Assembly (NCBI RefSeq): GCF_019669965.1
Contig: NZ_AP019781.1
Location: 124,001-188,000, forward strand
Direction of reading: 5' to 3'
Origin: Methanoculleus chikugoensis
Lineage (GTDB): Archaea; Halobacteriota; Methanomicrobia; Methanomicrobiales; Methanoculleaceae
Length of the DNA: 64,000 nt
The translations under genes and the position numbers were made by a program. The notes beneath the pieces were generated by a model, which was given only the letters and a program-made list of their open reading frames with translations, searched no databases and was not told where the DNA came from. Below, piece after piece: positions 6,643 to 29,771 of the stretch (position 1 is the stretch's first letter; every line of letters begins with the position of its first letter).

Positions 6643-6825
6643 ATGGATTATAATAGAGGAAACAGAAATTTTGGCGGTCCCAGAAACTTCGGCGGCCCCC
6701 GTGAAATGACAAAGACCATCTGTTCGGACTGCGGCAAAGAGTGCGAAGTCCCCTTCAAGCCGACCGAAGGCAGACCCGTGTATTGCCAGGACTGCCTCCC
6801 GAAGCACAGAAAACCCCGGTTCTAA
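6643..6825 (+). CDS. small CxxC...CxxC zinc-ribbon protein
   Basis: A 60-residue basic protein. An N-terminal Asn/Arg/Gly-rich stretch repeats RNFGGPR, followed by a zinc ribbon with cysteine pairs CSDC and CQDC separated by a VPF-KPTEGRPVY linker. This ribbon type (CxxC, VPF.P, GRPVYC..C) is widespread in methanogens and often linked to nucleic-acid or ribosome-associated small proteins; the role here is not known. In-frame GTG 6613 and ATG 6631 are alternative starts, but the promoter position favours 6631 or 6643. The Gly/Arg-rich tail is reminiscent of RNA-binding RGG regions. Convergent with the Mrp-type gene, with a T-tract between. Confidence 0.72.
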   Translation: MDYNRGNRNFGGPRNFGGPREMTKTICSDCGKECEVPFKPTEGRPVYCQDCLPKHRKPRF

Positions 6826-6833
6826 ACCAATAA

Positions 6834-6848
6834 ACCCTCTTTTTTTCG
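6834..6848 (+). terminator. T-tract terminator after the zinc-ribbon gene
   Basis: A run of seven T residues (6840-6846) follows 14 nt after the stop codon. This is typical of archaeal intrinsic termination. It sits between convergent genes. Confidence 0.55.
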
Positions 6849-6911
6849 CGCACGTCAGGTGATATCTCACTCATCCAGAGCAGAGCGGTTCATGGGAAAA
6901 AGGCGGCGGGC

Positions 6912-7778
6912 TCAGGAGAGCCCGAGTTCGGCGAAGAGAGTATTTTTGAGTGCCCGGAGTGCATCCCCCGCCGCCGAGTCGCCCTGGGTCACGGGGCGGC
7001 CGTTCCGGACGGCGTCGACCACCGACGTATCGAACGGGATCTTTCCCGCCACCACGATCTCTTCCCTCTCGCAGTAACCCTCGATCCGGGCGCAGATATC
7101 CCCGGCGAGGTCGAACCGGTTGATCGCGGCGAAGATCCGGACGCCGAACCGGCGGCAGACGGTCACGAGCCGTTCGAGGTCGTGGAGCGCCGAGACCCCC
7201 GGCTCCGTGACGATGAGAACCGCGTCCATACCGCTGATCGACGCGATCAGCGGGCAGCCTATCCCCGGCGGGCCGTCGGCGAGCAGCAGGTCGGCGCCGT
7301 CCGCAAGACGCATCGCCCGCTTCTTCACCTCGGTGACGAGCAATCCCGAGTTCCCGGAGCCCGGGAAGAGCCGGGCATGGGCGAGGTTGCCCCGGTCGGT
7401 CGCCGAGGTGTAGATCTCACCGCAGAGGCGGGGTTTCATCGAGACCGCTCCCACGGGGCAGACGTACGTGCAGACGGCGCAGCCTTCGCAGTGCAGCGCG
7501 TCCACCTCCCAGGCGTCGTTGCGCACGATGGCCCCGAACCGGCAGTGGTCGGCGCAGATGCCGCAGTCGCGGCACCGCTCCGGGTCGATCCGGGCCGCCG
7601 CGAGCCCCCGGAACTCCTCCGTCGTAAGCCGCCGGGGATGGAAGAGGAACTCCAGGTTTGCGGCATCCACGTCGCAGTCGGCAAGAACCTGCGGCATTCC
7701 GCTGATATCCGCGAGCGCCGCCGCCACCATCGTCTTCCCGGTGCCGCCCTTGCCGCTCACGACCGCAAGCCGGATCAC
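6912..7778 (-). CDS. MinD/Mrp-family P-loop ATPase with inserted 2[4Fe-4S] ferredoxin domain (copy 1)
   Basis: A 288-residue SIMIBI-class ATPase. The deviant Walker A motif SGKGGTGKT is at residues 8-16. A ferredoxin-like insert at about residues 62-100 carries CRDCGICADHC and CEGCAVCTYVC. The switch region contains DGPPGIGCP. The family is predicted to handle Fe-S or metal-cluster cargo together with NifX/NifB-like proteins, but no member of this exact form has an established reaction that I can name. The GTG start at 7778 overlaps the stop of the upstream copy by 4 nt (GTGA), so the two are translationally coupled. The two copies form the end of a four-gene minus-strand cluster. Confidence 0.88.
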   Translation of the reverse strand: MIRLAVVSGKGGTGKTMVAAALADISGMPQVLADCDVDAANLEFLFHPRRLTTEEFRGLAAARIDPERCRDCGICADHCRFGAIVRNDAWEVDALHCEGCAVCTYVCPVGAVSMKPRLCGEIYTSATDRGNLAHARLFPGSGNSGLLVTEVKKRAMRLADGADLLLADGPPGIGCPLIASISGMDAVLIVTEPGVSALHDLERLVTVCRRFGVRIFAAINRFDLAGDICARIEGYCEREEIVVAGKIPFDTSVVDAVRNGRPVTQGDSAAGDALRALKNTLFAELGLS

Positions 7779-14486: not shown

Positions 14487-14935
14487 GGGCCGGATCTGCA
14501 CGGATTCGGGGGGCGGTGCGAACTGCCTACTCACGCGAAGGCGCGAAGGCGCGAAATCTGAATAGGCAGGAAACCCCCCTTCGGGGTGGGGTGGTTCACC
14601 AGCGCTGTCATTCACGGATACCGTGGATCGGGACGTTTGTCCCCGGGTGGCCGCGGATCGGGATCGCGTCGCCCCCGCTGATCCACCTACCCTTCACCGG
14701 ACGTTCTCCCCTCCGCACCGGCGCCGCCCGAGAAGGCGCCGTTAATCCATTGCTTCCGCGGGAAGAAGACGATGGCCGGCAGCCGCAACTTATAAGTATC
14801 AGATACCCCACTGTTGGCCGGCAGGCTGCAGCTTGCAACCGAAGCGGGGCCGGGTTGAGCCCCCGGAAAGAAGCCGGGATGCAACGGGCACCCGGGCCTC
14901 GAGCCGGGAAGAGAGAACCGGTAATTGATGTGGTG
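14487..14935 (+). other. 449-nt intergenic region with hairpins and a probable long leader
   Basis: No gene is supported here. At 14526-14567 a GCGAAGGC-type short repeat is enclosed by an inverted repeat (ctgcct ... aggcag), resembling the hairpin repeats at 18.1 and 26.2 kb. A C-run/TTCG/G-run hairpin follows. A TATA-like element (cttataagt) at about 14789-14797 precedes about 140 nt of very GC-rich, self-complementary sequence leading to the ATP-cone gene, so a structured 5' leader or a small RNA is possible. Confidence 0.5.
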
Positions 14936-15467: not shown

Positions 15468-15542
15468 GGGCCCGTAGCTTAGTCCGGTCAGAGCGCCCGG
15501 CTCATAACCGGGCGGTCGTGGGTTCGAATCCCTCCGGGCCCA
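15468..15542 (+). tRNA. tRNA with CAT anticodon (elongator Met or Ile2)
   Basis: A 75-nt cloverleaf with a 7-bp acceptor GGGCCCG/CGGGCCC, discriminator A, T-loop TTCGAAT and anticodon CAT at 15503-15505 in the loop CTCATAA. The anticodon stem is CCCGG/CCGGG and lacks the three consecutive G-C pairs of initiator tRNA, so it is elongator Met or the modified Ile2 isoacceptor; sequence alone does not decide. CCA is not encoded. A TATA-like element (atttatatg) lies at about 15379-15388. Its 3' end is echoed by fragments at 16612 and 19078. Confidence 0.96.
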
Positions 15543-17936: not shown

Positions 17937-18466
17937 CCGCATTCTTTTTTCTCTGCACCCGGGACGACGACTCCTTGCCGAACGTTTCGAAGAGAACGGT
18001 CGCCCGCACGCCGGTTAAATCCCTCATGCTCCGGTTCTAGCGGACCGTCGCACGTTCCGACAGTCGTTCCCCGCGTGGTGATAGCCGATGCGTGTCCCGA
18101 AGGGTGCGGCCGGAGCATGAGCACCGTTAGGAACGACGTTCCTATGGAACGGAGTTCGAGCACCGCCAGGTGCGACTTGCGACGCTCCGGCAGGAACGGA
18201 GCTGGAACTCCCGGTGGGAAGCCGCGTCAGAAAAATTGCGCAGAATTTCGCTTAATTCTTCTAGAGCGCACGTAAGAACGCTCAAACCATGCGGATCTTC
18301 AACCACGAGTTGTTTTAGGACGACTTCGAGTAATCCGTGAGAAAATGCGGTACGTGAAGGGCCGGCTCCGCAAGGTGGTTCCACAAATGAGCGTCCGTCC
18401 AATACATCGCAGGGAAACCCGTTAGAAAGGCCTATCTGTCGGGACGCGAGATTCTCCTGAGAGACT
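17937..18466. other. 530-nt noncoding region with hairpin repeats
   Basis: No gene is supported. The segment from about 18087 to 18360 contains the hairpin repeat described in the separate entry; the flanks show nothing I can interpret. Confidence 0.5.
18087..18360. repeat. hairpin-array repeat, copy A
   Basis: This noncoding stretch contains the linkers GGAGCATGAG (18112-18121) and GGAGTTCGAG (18151-18160), with small hairpins between them (aggaac/gttcct, gcacc/ggtgc). Further on come an AATTTCGC-TTCTT block and a GTGAGAA block. The same elements recur in the same order at about 26100-26400, so this is a dispersed repeat and not random intergenic sequence. No open frame or transposase is present. 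Confidence 0.6.
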
Positions 18467-19030
18467 ATGATCGAATGGGCCGTCATCCTTTTACTGTTTC
18501 TTGCGCTCTTAGTTCTATTTTATAAGTACTCCAGGATTCAGGGTCAGGTCGAGCGGAAAGCACGGGAGTTATTCGAATCCTGGCGCCGGGGGGAACGGGA
18601 GGATATCGAGACCTGGAAAGAGCAGGAACTCAGGCGGCTCTCGGATGAGAAGGCAAAGATCCTCTTTGAGAAGTGGAGACTTGACGAAGAGGGGAATATC
18701 CGCACCGATGCGGTCAGGCGCAGCCAGTCAGTGACCCGGGGGAAGGTCACGGAGTGCCTCATCCCGTACTTCCCGGACTTCCCCTACAATCCGAAGGATG
18801 CACGGTTCTTAGGAACCCCGGTCGATCTCATCGTCTTCGACGGATTGTCCGACGCCGATGAGGTGGAGAAGGTGGTGTTCGTCGAGATAAAGACGGGTAA
18901 AGCCGCCAACCTGAGTAAACGGGAGCGTGCCGTCAGGGAGTGCATCAAAGCCGGGCGGGTGCAGTATTCCACCATCCACCAGTCGTTTGACGAAGACGCT
19001 AACCGGTTGCGCGATATGGGGATGAACTAG
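18467..19030 (+). CDS. membrane-anchored Holliday-junction-resolvase-related endonuclease
   Basis: A 187-residue protein with one N-terminal transmembrane helix (residues 3-21), an acidic/basic coiled-coil segment (about 25-85), and a C-terminal restriction-endonuclease-like fold related to archaeal Hjc. The catalytic pattern is visible as VDLIVFDG and VVFVEIKTGKAANLSKRE, giving D...ExK (EIK). The family is known as Endonuc_Holl; its substrate is not established, and the membrane anchor is a feature of this subgroup. It lies alone in a gene-poor stretch between noncoding repeats and a tRNA fragment. Confidence 0.82.
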   Translation: MIEWAVILLLFLALLVLFYKYSRIQGQVERKARELFESWRRGEREDIETWKEQELRRLSDEKAKILFEKWRLDEEGNIRTDAVRRSQSVTRGKVTECLIPYFPDFPYNPKDARFLGTPVDLIVFDGLSDADEVEKVVFVEIKTGKAANLSKRERAVRECIKAGRVQYSTIHQSFDEDANRLRDMGMN

Positions 19031-25166: not shown

Positions 25167-26033
25167 ATGCTGTACTATAAAGACATCGTTTTCCTGAAAC
25201 CCCTGCCTGAAGAGATCCGGCGTCTCGGGCTGCTCCCGGCGGACCTTCACTTCCATACCCGGCACTCCGACTCCCCCACCCGCGTGCGCGATGCATTGAA
25301 ACTCGCGGCACGGCGGGGGATCGGGCTTGCGATCACCGACCACAACCAGGTCAGCGGCGTGGCCGAGGCGGAGCGGCAGGGGATCCGGGTCCCCCTCATC
25401 CCCGGAATCGAGGTCAGCGCCAACGACGGCCCGCACATCCTGCTCTACTTCTACTCGGTATCCGACCTCCTGGACTTCTACCGGTGCCACGTTGAGAAGA
25501 ACCGGAGAAACGGCCCGTACACCGCGATACATCTCGATACCTCCGAGATCCTCGACCGCCGGGAAGGCTACGCCTGCATCGCCGCCGAGGCGCATCCCTG
25601 CGGCTACGCCTTCCTGAACCGGGGCGTCCAGCGCTGCGTCGCCAGCAGGTGCATCGGCGAAGAGATCTTCTCCCGCCTGGACGGGCTCGAAGTGATCTGC
25701 GGCGGGATGGCCCGGAGCCATAACCTGAAGGCGGCCGGGCTCGCCGTCGCCCACGGTCTCGGGCGGACCGGCGGAACCGACGGCCACCTCCTCTACGAGC
25801 TCGGGGGGGTCGTCACCTGCGCCGAGGCCGATACCGTCGAAGAGTTCCTGGACGCCATCCGGGCGAAAAAGACCGCCGTCATCGGGCGCGAGCGGCCGCT
25901 CTTCGAGAAGGCGGTGATGGGGACCGCGGTCCTCCCGCACCACCTCCCCTACACCGTCCCCATCCTCCAGGCCCGCTGGGAGCAGGACCTCCCCCGGATC
26001 AGGAAGTTTGTTGCGGGCCGGCTGAACCGGTGA
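25167..26033 (+). CDS. PHP-domain metal-dependent phosphoesterase
   Basis: A 288-residue protein with the PHP fold. The first metal motif is DLHFHTRHSDSPT near residue 27 (HxH), followed by ITDHNQVSG near 54, GIEVSANDGPH near 78, the EAHPCGYAF motif near 145, and GGTDGHLLYELG near 202. The substrate is unknown; relatives hydrolyse nucleoside or sugar phosphates. It lies between the two SpoIIAA-like genes and seems to have its own leader (GGTGATC at 25147). The last 35 residues are basic and may be a partner surface. Confidence 0.88.
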   Translation: MLYYKDIVFLKPLPEEIRRLGLLPADLHFHTRHSDSPTRVRDALKLAARRGIGLAITDHNQVSGVAEAERQGIRVPLIPGIEVSANDGPHILLYFYSVSDLLDFYRCHVEKNRRNGPYTAIHLDTSEILDRREGYACIAAEAHPCGYAFLNRGVQRCVASRCIGEEIFSRLDGLEVICGGMARSHNLKAAGLAVAHGLGRTGGTDGHLLYELGGVVTCAEADTVEEFLDAIRAKKTAVIGRERPLFEKAVMGTAVLPHHLPYTVPILQARWEQDLPRIRKFVAGRLNR

Positions 26034-26422
26034 GAAGGCCGGTACTTCGCGGAGGTTTTTTGAGGGCGCCGGAGCGCGAGAGGCTTCAGGCTTCGTGTGA
26101 GTTACCGGGGTACGGTGGAGAATGCCTCACGCGAAGTGCGACTGCCAAAATGGCAGGAGCATGAGAAGACCGAAAGTCTTCGAAGTGCGACGGATGGGGC
26201 ATCCGGAGCATGAGCACTGCAGGTGCGAGAGCGCGAAGGCGCGAAAGACGACGGCCCTTTGGGTCGGAGTTCGAGCACCGTCAAGGTGCGCAGGAGACTG
26301 GCATCAATAATCGACCGAATTTCGCGTTCTTCGCGGCTCGAAGTCTACGGCTTCTCAAACTCCTTCCCCAGGGGGAAGTCGTTCTTCGCGTGAGAATATC
26401 ATGAAGTGATAGTGATATGGCC
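26034..26422. repeat. 389-nt noncoding region with hairpin-array repeat, copy B
   Basis: At least five small stems with different sequences (26142-26156, 26166-26180, 26192-26204, 26214-26226, 26275-26289) are joined alternately by GAAGTGCGAC (26133, 26182) and GGAGCATGAG (26156, 26205), then GGAGTTCGAG (26266). Stem sequences vary but remain self-complementary. GCGCGAAGGCGCGAA at about 26230 also occurs at 14531. The distal part (AATTTCGC, TTCTTCG, GTGAGAA) matches copy A at 18.2 kb. No coding sequence is supported. Confidence 0.62.
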
Positions 26423-27856
26423 TCACCCGAGCGGCGAGAAGAGGCGGGAGATCGACTCCTTCACCCGGATCCCCCGAGACCGTGTTCGGTAATCCTCCGG
26501 CGTGATCTCGGTCGAGACCGCGAGATCCTCCTCAAACGCCCGCACGAGTTCGGCACCGACGGCCGCGTCGTAGAAGAACGCGTTCGCCTCGAAGTTCAGC
26601 CGGAAACTCCGGACGTCCCAGTTCGCGCTCCCGACCGAACCCGCCTTACCGTCGACGACGATCGTCTTTGCGTGGAGGAACCCGTCGTCGTAAGTGTAGG
26701 CCCGCACCCCCGCATCCAGCAGGTCGCCGATGAACGAGAGCGTCGCCCAGTAGACGAACGGGTGGTCGGGCTTGCAGGGGATCATGATCCGGACGTCGAC
26801 CCCGGAGAGCACCGCGAGCCGCAGGGCGTCGGTGACGCTCTCATCCGGTATGAAGTAGGGCGTCTGGATGGAGATCGACTCCCGGGCGGAGTTGATCAGT
26901 TTGAGGTACCCCTCCTTTATCGGGCTCCACCGGGTATCCGGGCCGCCGGAGACGATCTGGATGGGGGTTGTGCCGGGAGCGTCCTCCTCGGTGAAGGAGC
27001 AGGTCTCAAGGCCCGGGTACTCGCCGGTCACGTAGTGCCAGTCGAGGAAGAACCGGAGCTGGAGCATCCGGACGGCTTCTCCCGTGATCCGAACGGTGGT
27101 ATCGCGCCAGCGGCCGAGCGGTCCCTTCCCGAGATACTCGTTTCCGATGTTGTACCCGCCGATGAACCCGACCTCCCCGTCGATGACGGCGATTTTGCGG
27201 TGGTTGCGGTAGTTTATCCGGTAGACCGAGGGGAAGAAGACAGCGATCTGCCCGCCCGCATCCTCCAGTTCGGAGAACGCCTTCCGCGATCCGCCCCCGG
27301 CCCGGGAGCCCATCGCATCGAAGAGGAGCCGGACCTCGACGCCCTCCCGGGCCTTCTCGGTAAGGGCGCGGACGACCGCCCGCCCGAGTTCATCGTTATT
27401 GATGACGAAGTACTCCAGGTGGATGTTATGGCGTGCCATGCGGATCGCAGCAAAGAGCGCGTCGAAGATATCCTCGCCCCGGGTGTAGACGTCGACCCGG
27501 TTCCCCTCGGTCAGGTAGGCCCGGTTGTTCCGGAGGAGGAGGAAGATTGCGTCGCGGAACTCTTCCGCCGCCGGGGTGGCGAACCGGTGATGGTTGCCGG
27601 CGAGCGCCCGATGCTGCTCCTCGAAAGTCTCCTGGAGAAAACAGCGGTCTTCGTGCTCCTTGACGACGAACATCCTCTGCCGGGTATAGTTCTGCCCGAA
27701 GAACAGGTAGAGGGCGAACCCGACAGGAGGGAGCAGGAAGAGAACGACCAGCCAGGCCGTCGTCGCCGTCGGGTTTCTCCGCTCGAAGAAGACGATCGTG
27801 ACGGCAAACACGACGTTGAGCGCCAGGACGACCCCTATCAAGAGCAGCAGTTCCAC
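26423..27856 (-). CDS. cls: cardiolipin synthase (phospholipase D superfamily)
   Basis: A 477-residue membrane phospholipid synthase joining two phospholipid headgroups. Two N-terminal helices (residues 3-22 and 35-53) are followed by a PLD nuclease-like core with two HKD motifs: NHRKIAVIDG near residue 228 and HAKTIVVDGKAG near 400, each with following G/S-S/N. In archaea the product would be an archaeal (ether-lipid) cardiolipin. I place the start at GTG 27856, since a TATA element (gtatata at 27907-27914, minus strand) lies 50 nt upstream and GGGGGT precedes it; the longer frame to 27937 starts before that box. Confidence 0.9.
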   Translation of the reverse strand: MELLLLIGVVLALNVVFAVTIVFFERRNPTATTAWLVVLFLLPPVGFALYLFFGQNYTRQRMFVVKEHEDRCFLQETFEEQHRALAGNHHRFATPAAEEFRDAIFLLLRNNRAYLTEGNRVDVYTRGEDIFDALFAAIRMARHNIHLEYFVINNDELGRAVVRALTEKAREGVEVRLLFDAMGSRAGGGSRKAFSELEDAGGQIAVFFPSVYRINYRNHRKIAVIDGEVGFIGGYNIGNEYLGKGPLGRWRDTTVRITGEAVRMLQLRFFLDWHYVTGEYPGLETCSFTEEDAPGTTPIQIVSGGPDTRWSPIKEGYLKLINSARESISIQTPYFIPDESVTDALRLAVLSGVDVRIMIPCKPDHPFVYWATLSFIGDLLDAGVRAYTYDDGFLHAKTIVVDGKAGSVGSANWDVRSFRLNFEANAFFYDAAVGAELVRAFEEDLAVSTEITPEDYRTRSRGIRVKESISRLFSPLG

Positions 27857-27982
27857 TCGAGAGACCCCCAGCCGGAGCAGGGCGTTCCCGTCTATCTCCC
27901 CGCAGGGGTATATACGTGCCTGCCGGACGATCACCACCGGTCAGCCATACCTTTTTTTCTTCAGAGGGTTATAGGGGCACCC

Positions 27983-29438: not shown

Positions 29439-29452
29439 ATTCCAGTATATAC

Positions 29453-29715
29453 GGGGACTAGCCCGGGTGGCTCGGCGTCACTTGTTACCCGAAACCGCCG
29501 TCAGCGGGGGGCGAAGTCTGAGGAAGGCCGCAGCGGCCTGCAGGAACCTCTGCGTCCCGACGGAGAAGCCTCGTCCCATGAGGTCGGCGGAAAGGGATCA
29601 AAGTCCCGGAGGGGGCGGCGACCTTTTGCCGCGGGTACCGGTTCAGGCCCGGAAGGGAGCAGACTTACCGTGGACGTTCGGCGCCCATGGGGTTGCGGGG
29701 TGGAGGAGGGATGCT
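29453..29715 (+). ncRNA. 7S RNA of the signal recognition particle (SRP RNA)
   Basis: The 5' domain shows the archaeal SRP pattern (GGGTGGCTCGGCGTCACTTG, then ACCCGAAACCGCC). The universally conserved helix 8 lies at about 29639-29675, with GGTTCAGGCCCGGAAGGGAG including the GGAA tetraloop and the AGCAGAC internal loop that binds SRP54. Helix 6 precedes it (GGCGGCGACCTTTTGCCGC, SRP19 site). The element tattttta at 29423-29430 is well placed as a promoter. Exact ends are estimated; the 3' end lies between about 29700 and 29740. It acts in co-translational targeting to the membrane. Confidence 0.9.
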
Positions 29716-29771
29716 GCGGTGAATGCTTGCGCGCACGGTCGACCGAAGACGTGTCCCCAACGGCGATCTTC

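Follow-up and report, generated by a model that had tools for sequence, protein, structure and literature searches.

Arrays of paired hairpins in the genome of Methanoculleus chikugoensis probably represent a non-autonomous mobile DNA unit in tandem and nested copies

The window analysed here is a 64,000-nt stretch of the genome of Methanoculleus chikugoensis (G000; 2.62 Mb, single contig), and in it a composite element occupies the gap between a PHP-domain gene and a phospholipase-D-family (PLD) gene. The parts of the element are listed below, where R1 is a 33-position covariance model of the stem-1 hairpin; other genomes and loci are identified by handles beginning with G and L.

25167-26033, + strand: PHP-domain gene (Pfam), left neighbour of the array
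26034-26421, no strand: composite element between the PHP gene and the phospholipase-D-family gene (Pfam names), ends approximate
26091-26101, no strand: CTTCGTGTGAG, imperfect inverted-repeat partner of CTCACGCGAAG
26102-26125, no strand: spacer X, near-constant in length and variable in sequence
26126-26136, + strand: CTCACGCGAAG, start of the left arm (units are most often preceded by GAAG)
26137-26181, + strand: unit 1 core, two hairpins (R1 match 26133-26165), missing from the simple G016 and G028 alleles
26186-26226, + strand: unit 2 core, two hairpins (R1 match 26182-26214)
26227-26245, + strand: arm repeats GAGAGCGCGAAGGCGCGAA
26247-26289, + strand: unit 3 core, GACGAC..GGTGC (R1 match 26243-26275)
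26290-26316, no strand: spacer Y, separating the two arms, with a similar stretch in the G016, G028 and G120 alleles
26340-26383, - strand: unit 4 core in the right arm (R1 match 26354-26387), a 47-bp insertion relative to G016 and G028
26384-26394, no strand: CTTCGCGTGAG, end of the right arm and end sequence of the host element
26395-26421, no strand: second X-type spacer, reaching CTCACCCGAG at the end of the neighbouring gene
26423-27937, - strand: PLD gene (Pfam), right neighbour of the array

An earlier note on this DNA had described, at 26100-26400, hairpins with differing but still complementary stems that alternate with linkers. The array has exactly this organization, with the linkers GAAGTGCGAC (26133, 26182) and GGAGCATGAG (26156, 26205), and perfect stems of differing sequence between them. 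The 381 nt from 26040 to 26420 fold more stably than all of 100 dinucleotide shuffles (z -5.6). Taken singly and with up to one mismatch, the linkers are at most marginally more frequent in the window than expected by chance (10 against 4.3 expected for one, 6 against 5.9 for the other). The array is not a CRISPR array, as identical repeats with unique spacers of constant length were not found and the stems between linkers vary with their complementarity kept. Elsewhere in the window, Rfam identifies an archaeal SRP RNA (29451-29760) and a tRNA (15468-15542), the only two features in the window that reach the gathering score.

The note had also pointed to a second locus, at 18087-18360, and to a related piece at 14531. 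The features found there are as follows.

14530-14555, + strand: arm fragment CTCACGCGAAGGCGCGAAGGCGCGAA, free of units, resembling the arm of the larger element
18023-18056, - strand: R1 hairpin (R1 model)
18112-18121, + strand: GGAGCATGAG linker (linker search)
18128-18160, + strand: R1 hairpin GGAACGAC..GGAGTTCGAG (R1 model and match to the first array)
18164-18376, no strand: 213 nt present in G000 and missing from the orthologous G063 region

The second locus had been said to repeat the linkers, a hairpin and, in unchanged order, the trailing blocks of the first. The linker GGAGCATGAG is indeed present at 18112, but GAAGTGCGAC is absent even when one mismatch is allowed. The common hairpin is borne out by a 43-column match with GGAGTTCGAGCACCG, which scores 49 against a maximum of 28 in 300 block shuffles. 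The trailing blocks amount to one 9-nt match, a chance-level similarity equalled by 43 of 300 shuffles, and their homology was rejected. The two regions, 26100-26400 and 18087-18360, share a single GGAGCATGAG linker and a single GGAGTTCGAG hairpin. The 14531 piece is also real, and consists of arm sequence. Folding of 17940-18470 as a whole is not unusual (z -1.25; 13 of 100 shuffles). The second locus was compared with G063 only; its gene was matched in five of the 35 genomes and the motif search succeeded at one of these five loci. Overall, the earlier observation is partly confirmed, and its interpretation as a dispersed, perhaps mobile, repeat is supported by the further copies, the covariation, the empty and filled alleles and the nested insertions.

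The repeat is dispersed through the genome and non-coding, as had been proposed. A search of G000 with the linker pair GAAGTGCGAC-N5..30-GGAGCATGAG retrieves 14 occurrences, and the reversed control pattern none. The R1 model finds 143 matches at E 0.01 among the 150 first-look candidates listed per genome (counts near 150 may be floors), and at this threshold 32 of 35 Methanoculleus genomes are positive. Twenty roughly evenly spaced 20-kb stretches contain 19 R1 matches at E<0.01, which corresponds pro rata to about 125 per genome. Across the order, the exact linker pair occurs in 19 of 199 genomes and two of 38 genera. With stricter filters and E 1e-4, R1 matches were found in 39 of the 199 genomes and seven of the 38 genera, among 35 candidates listed per genome. 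Within the same 35 listed candidates, a single genome outside Methanoculleus, from a sister genus, has more than two matches (28). The exact pattern with a 13-nt gap was found in 43 stretches, assigned to Methanoculleus, a Methanomicrobiaceae MAG, a Methanomicrobiales MAG and MAGs titled Euryarchaeota; viral contigs gave no match to this exact 33-nt pattern. Head-to-tail runs of nine R1 matches at 45-46-nt steps in G052 (L288 13511-13910) and of four at 45-nt steps in G028 (L281 10-177) indicate that units are capable of satellite-like expansion.

The unit is a double hairpin with the core TGCGAC-stem1-GGAGCATGAG-stem2, or (GAAG)-TGCGAC-stem1-GGAGCATGAG-stem2-(GAAG) when its flanks are included. 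The first hairpin has a 4-bp outer helix (GTGC/GCAT, GAAC/GTTC or GAGC/GCTT), and GA/GA steps lie between this helix and the variable stem. We collected 155 two-hairpin units from all examined loci using a scan that requires the stems, taking units as distinct with 12-nt flanks and counting orthologues separately. Their cores measure 41-49 nt, and exact ends cannot be set for units lying in repetitive arms. GAAG precedes 78 of the 155, follows 53 and is present on both sides of 43. The trinucleotide before the core is AAG in 80 units, GGG in 18, AGG in 15 and GAG in 12. Four example units were folded as DNA (z -5.8, -3.0, -2.1 and -1.7). The two from the window fold as drawn (z -5.8 and -3.0), and the best fold of a unit in a YetF/DUF421-like gene, described below, is without hairpin 1 (z -1.7).

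A covariance model with a search for compensatory changes had been suggested as a check, and both further copies and covariation were found. For covariation we used 42 distinct 33-mers picked by their flanks and length, with no stem requirement; this selection fixes the GA steps, pair 7-27 and part of pair 10-24, which are conserved by construction. In this set 90.7% of cells pair, against 71.9% after shuffling, and 81 cells are changed on both sides, against 29.3, none of 500 shuffles reaching either value; related paralogues count as independent in the shuffle tests, so that significance is inflated. Sliding the partners by 1-3 columns reduces pairing to 29-43%. Two weak measures show little, with seven pairs changing on both sides against 6.6 (315 of 500 shuffles) and 22 further pair types against 19.2 (25 of 500). 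The outer linkers covary as well: in 74 hairpins picked by the inner stem, 165 pairs form against 136 ± 5.3, with a maximum of 156 in 2000 shuffles. Outer pairing has exceptions: GTGC/GCTT and similar combinations contain one mismatched position. In the outer helix 42 cells are G.T and one is A.C, one pair supplying 33 of the 42 G.T, and the inner stem has 12 G.T and 10 A.C, without excess. A fold belonging to one strand is thus only suggested, since the G.T excess comes mostly from one pair and the inner stem has none.

Units are often found within an arm of a larger host palindrome, CTCACGCGAAG(NNCGCGAAG)n - spacer Y - (CTTCGCG..)n CTTCGCGTGAG, whose ends are CTCACGCGAAG and CTTCGCGTGAG. Adjacent host palindromes are joined by spacer X, of 25-28 nt, and the junction TTCGCGTGAG-N(25-28)-CTCACGCGAA occurs at 25 places in G000. 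By eye, the spacers at these 25 places have a conserved end of about RYYGTATYRTT, a variable middle and a near-constant length. A 105-bp copy of the host palindrome lies within 10-nt direct repeats in G063 and G016 and is missing from G000 (L225/L241/L260-269). A third, GC-rich palindromic family, GGCGGGG / GGTGGGGAC...AGGGG, also carries hairpin units by eye; it was seen at L085, L227 (around 6809-7295), L042, L074 and L249.

Comparison of orthologous loci shows that units have been inserted repeatedly, as expected for the non-autonomous mobile element that had been put forward as a possibility. The PHP/PLD gap is recognizable at 29 loci in the genus, of which 24 lack the element (e.g. G063), four of them judged by eye where the end marker was not found. 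G016 and G028 have a simple palindrome without units, G120 has units in the right arm, one nested inside a hairpin, G000 has four units, three of them in the left arm and the fourth in the right, and G108 has a partial element. In another gap (L230), a single hairpin module of G000 holds both a 46-bp unit within the hairpin loop and a 47-bp tandem unit, each absent from G063. Coding sequence is also affected. In the YetF/DUF421-like gene, 46 bp present in G000 and absent from G063 consist of a 43-nt unit and a second CTC, that is, a direct repeat. In G052, a nucleotidyltransferase-like gene (L284 15488) is broken by a 46-bp unit that has no exact direct repeat; the unit is absent in G016 and G034, and the frame of the gene is open in G016. 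A called gene of G034 ends inside a unit that has a 6-nt repeat, GATGGC, at its ends (L278 3145-5025). A stricter indel scan retrieved 14 events of 38-60 nt, five of which are units, the L230 insertions not being among them. Some empty alleles could be precise losses, given that the YetF gene is empty in the G000-like G063 while five other species have the insertion.

Flanking duplications, another suggested check, are in excess. Among the 77 units without a preceding GAAG, 26 have direct repeats that are 3 nt or longer (offset 0 or 1), against 12.9 ± 2.7 after shuffling (0 of 5000), some of the 26 lying in tandem contexts. The lengths of the repeats are not uniform and range from 0 to 7.

In our view the arrays probably consist of copies, in tandem and nested, of a mobile DNA unit that is non-autonomous and made of two linker-joined hairpins with a core of 41-49 nt. 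Such a unit would insert after a purine-rich trinucleotide whose last base is G, most commonly the AAG of GAAG in the larger palindromic host element, and otherwise a GGG or AGG in the hairpin of another unit. Insertion would often leave a direct repeat of about 3 nt. The inserted unit would often end in GAAG again, and for this reason copies would pile up as arrays and nests. We infer that the unit moves as DNA, by way of a folded single strand that could form, for instance, when the lagging strand is replicated or DNA is repaired. The mover could be an enzyme of the host or of another mobile element acting in trans, not recognizable as a Y1 transposase or reverse transcriptase, or the process could be template switching between RRG microhomologies.

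The last option can be extended to a reading in which there is no transposase at all, RRG-flanked hairpins being copied by template switching or microhomology and arrays growing by slippage. We regard this as a possibility to be taken seriously, though not the likeliest. It fits the resemblance of the flanking trinucleotides to donor flanks (AAG/GGG/GAG) and the variation of array length between relatives, as between G034 and G016, which differ by a 47-bp step with a 27-nt repeat. The runs of nine units in G052 and four in G028 are of the same kind, and no mobilizing enzyme was found among the two families searched, Y1_Tnp and RVT_1. However, insertions in ordinary genes have a flanking repeat of just 0-3 nt, and the unit in the YetF gene has no second genomic copy at up to three mismatches, though that insertion may be old.

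Movement of REP/REPIN-like elements by a RAYT, a Y1 HUH tyrosine transposase recognizing a hairpin in single-stranded DNA, would also account for short extragenic palindromes in high copy number with their hairpin structure kept, for their intergenic placement and for a fixed tetranucleotide 5' of the unit, here GAAG in 78 of 155. The distribution of the enzyme makes this unlikely. Y1_Tnp has no match in G000, which rejects a Y1/RAYT driver there, and was found in seven of the 35 genus genomes (six above the cut-off); five of the seven have 0-6 R1 matches, and the other two are G096, with 91, and G120, with 143 and a Y1 match below the cut-off. A reverse-transcriptase driver was rejected likewise, RVT_1 having no match in G000 and being found in three of the 35 genomes. 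Among the 16 genomes with at least 100 R1 matches, Y1_Tnp occurs in one (G120, below the cut-off) and RVT_1 in two (G058 and G108). Simple motif counts at 12 Y1 loci gave GAGCACCG at none, CACGCGAAG at one (L137) and GTGCGAC once in seven. Some units also have short direct repeats, which Y1 transposases are not expected to leave. The flanks of the unit read GAAG/TGCGAC and GGAG; the tag described for REP families in the available text of PMC3733652 is GTAG or CGTC.

The position of units relative to genes bears on a further reading, that they are functional structured RNAs or mRNA 3'-end elements selected for pairing. Genes were called with our own codon-usage gene caller. By a 10-nt overlap criterion, 93 of the 94 R1 matches from G000 stretches lie clear of called genes, as do 122 of the 123 from other stretches and loci; 69 of the 94 come from ten stretches picked for elements, many of the other loci had been retrieved through a unit, and genes already broken by a unit (e.g. 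in G052) count as gaps. The 32 occupied gaps comprise 19 convergent, 11 tandem and two divergent (one match at a stretch end was left out), against 45, 145 and 78 among 268 background gaps of at least 100 bp, occupied ones included. The convergent excess is significant (Fisher, p = 6e-7). For divergent gaps p = 0.019 was computed with 3 of 32 where the listed count is 2 of 32, and the value is thus on the safe side. Stretches not picked for elements, together with the window, give eight convergent, four tandem and one divergent (n = 13). The bias looks like selection against promoter disruption; the majority of copies are probably neutral or selfish and are tolerated where genes converge.

A role as RNA would agree with the convergent enrichment and with the compensatory changes, the G.U pairs of the outer helix and the GA/GA steps. 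Nevertheless, both unit orientations occur within one gap, and in tandem gaps 24 R1 matches are oriented with the genes and 15 against them. Units are present or absent from species to species and are nested in one another, and no Rfam family reaches the gathering score at the element loci. We therefore consider this reading improbable. Chance similarity of two GC-rich loci, with which the near-chance frequency of single one-mismatch linkers in the window and the chance-level trailing blocks would agree, and which the earlier note had left as the outcome should further copies and covariation be lacking, is refuted by the genome-wide copies, the orthologues and the covariation.

The mobile unit in the YetF gene merits separate consideration. 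The 43-nt unit (G000:C1:1233636-1233678; L302; L237 9650-9682; counterparts L303-L307) lies at the same site in six species, G000, G052, G028, G128, G016 and G120, with one copy per genome within three mismatches. It has no match in 29 of the 35 genus genomes, and among these the gene without the unit was established for G063. Divergence of the unit among the five frameshifted alleles is 0.9%. Codons after the unit, read in the original frame, have pS 0.32 and pN 0.079 in these alleles, a ratio of 0.24 (bootstrap 0.10-0.48), and upstream codons have a ratio of 0.35 (0.23-0.50). The downstream frame contains indels of 3 and 9 nt only and is open to a stop at a similar place. An in-frame CTC precedes the unit in all six species and a CTC, or CTT in G028, follows it. 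The GA steps and the 4-bp helix of the unit had also prompted kink-turn, box C/D and archaeal bulge-helix-bulge intron readings; by eye, one fold of the YetF junction has no bulge-helix-bulge.

In T4 gene 60 and the yeast mitochondrial byps, ribosomes bypass a short hairpin gap in a gene that has matching in-frame flanking codons and a length not a multiple of three. The YetF gap is similar in being short, a hairpin unit, flanked by matching codons and not a multiple of three. Bypass-type flanks were found in the five frameshifted alleles, CTC before and, across a 46-nt step, CTC after in four and CTT in G028. The pattern fits ribosome bypassing and does not prove it. Under bypassing, the codon pair would be the element's own 3-nt target repeat. 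It seems to us rather doubtful that this gene of an archaeal chromosome tolerates a mobile double hairpin of some 43 nt because ribosomes bypass it, from the in-frame CTC to CTC or CTT. G052 has a frame-changing deletion further upstream, and just 10 of its upstream codons entered pN/pS; G120 is back in frame through the unit; and the G063 allele is empty. Repeated horizontal gain of the unit is also conceivable. Bypassing of all units is unsupported, since only two of 217 R1 matches (94 + 123) overlap called genes by at least 10 nt. Unlike the case of T4 gene 60 and byps, there is only one candidate gene here. If true, bypassing in YetF would tie the mobility of hairpin elements to programmed translational hopping in a cellular genome.

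We found no published title describing the unit for Methanoculleus, Methanomicrobiales or nested palindromic repeats, within a partial coverage of the literature, and the available text of the Methanoculleus marisnigri genome paper does not mention it (PMC3035220). Satellite families of 45 and 51 nt are listed for M. marisnigri in the accessible part of PMC6749651. Their length fits the tandem period of about 45-50 nt found here, and they may be the same sequences; they are listed there as tandem repeats, without a mobile unit, hairpin or insertion.

Among known hairpin elements, REP/BIME/REPIN sequences are palindromes of 20-40 bp with an unpaired tag; the GTAG families go with RAYT, and in the text available the CGTC families have no associated transposase and some families are inserted in other palindromes (PMC3733652). 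Like the present unit they are short extragenic palindromes in many copies, whereas the unit here has two hairpins and G000 has no Y1 match. The Allomyces double hairpin elements and the hairpin-forming repeats of sponge mtDNA are organellar. They resemble the Methanoculleus elements in that single and double hairpins lie between, and sometimes within, genes and that tandem insertion yields multi-hairpin stretches, while flanking duplications are reported as lacking in Allomyces, as far as the available text goes (PMC2800124).

The closest working analogue is the GC42 cluster of yeast mitochondria, a 42-nt palindromic unit with AG or ACT repeats and constrained stems (PMC4478555); the two would work alike, and kinship is not claimed. 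According to the parts of that paper available, GC42 is sporadically present or absent and mostly intergenic, its units merge and shuffle, and its mechanism is left open, with cut-and-paste and RNA-mediated movement both discussed (PMC4478555). The features typical of GC clusters that were found here are a hairpin unit of about 40 nt, a structure that is kept, short direct repeats and presence/absence polymorphism; the likeness thus covers a palindromic unit of about 40 nt, short flanking repeats, presence/absence, mostly intergenic placement and mergers. The systems differ in that GC42 belongs to organellar DNA, which is part of what defines its class, and the present unit to an archaeal chromosome. 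The GAAG/RRG target, the GA/GA steps and the nesting in a larger palindromic host element set the unit apart from GC42, as does the lack of a reverse transcriptase family match in G000. How mobile hairpins of about 40 nt with short flanking repeats move in yeast mitochondria is an unsolved question, to judge from the same available text (PMC4478555). A nested family in a free-living archaeal genus, in 32 of 35 searched genomes, provides another setting for testing target choice, nesting and the mobilizing process.
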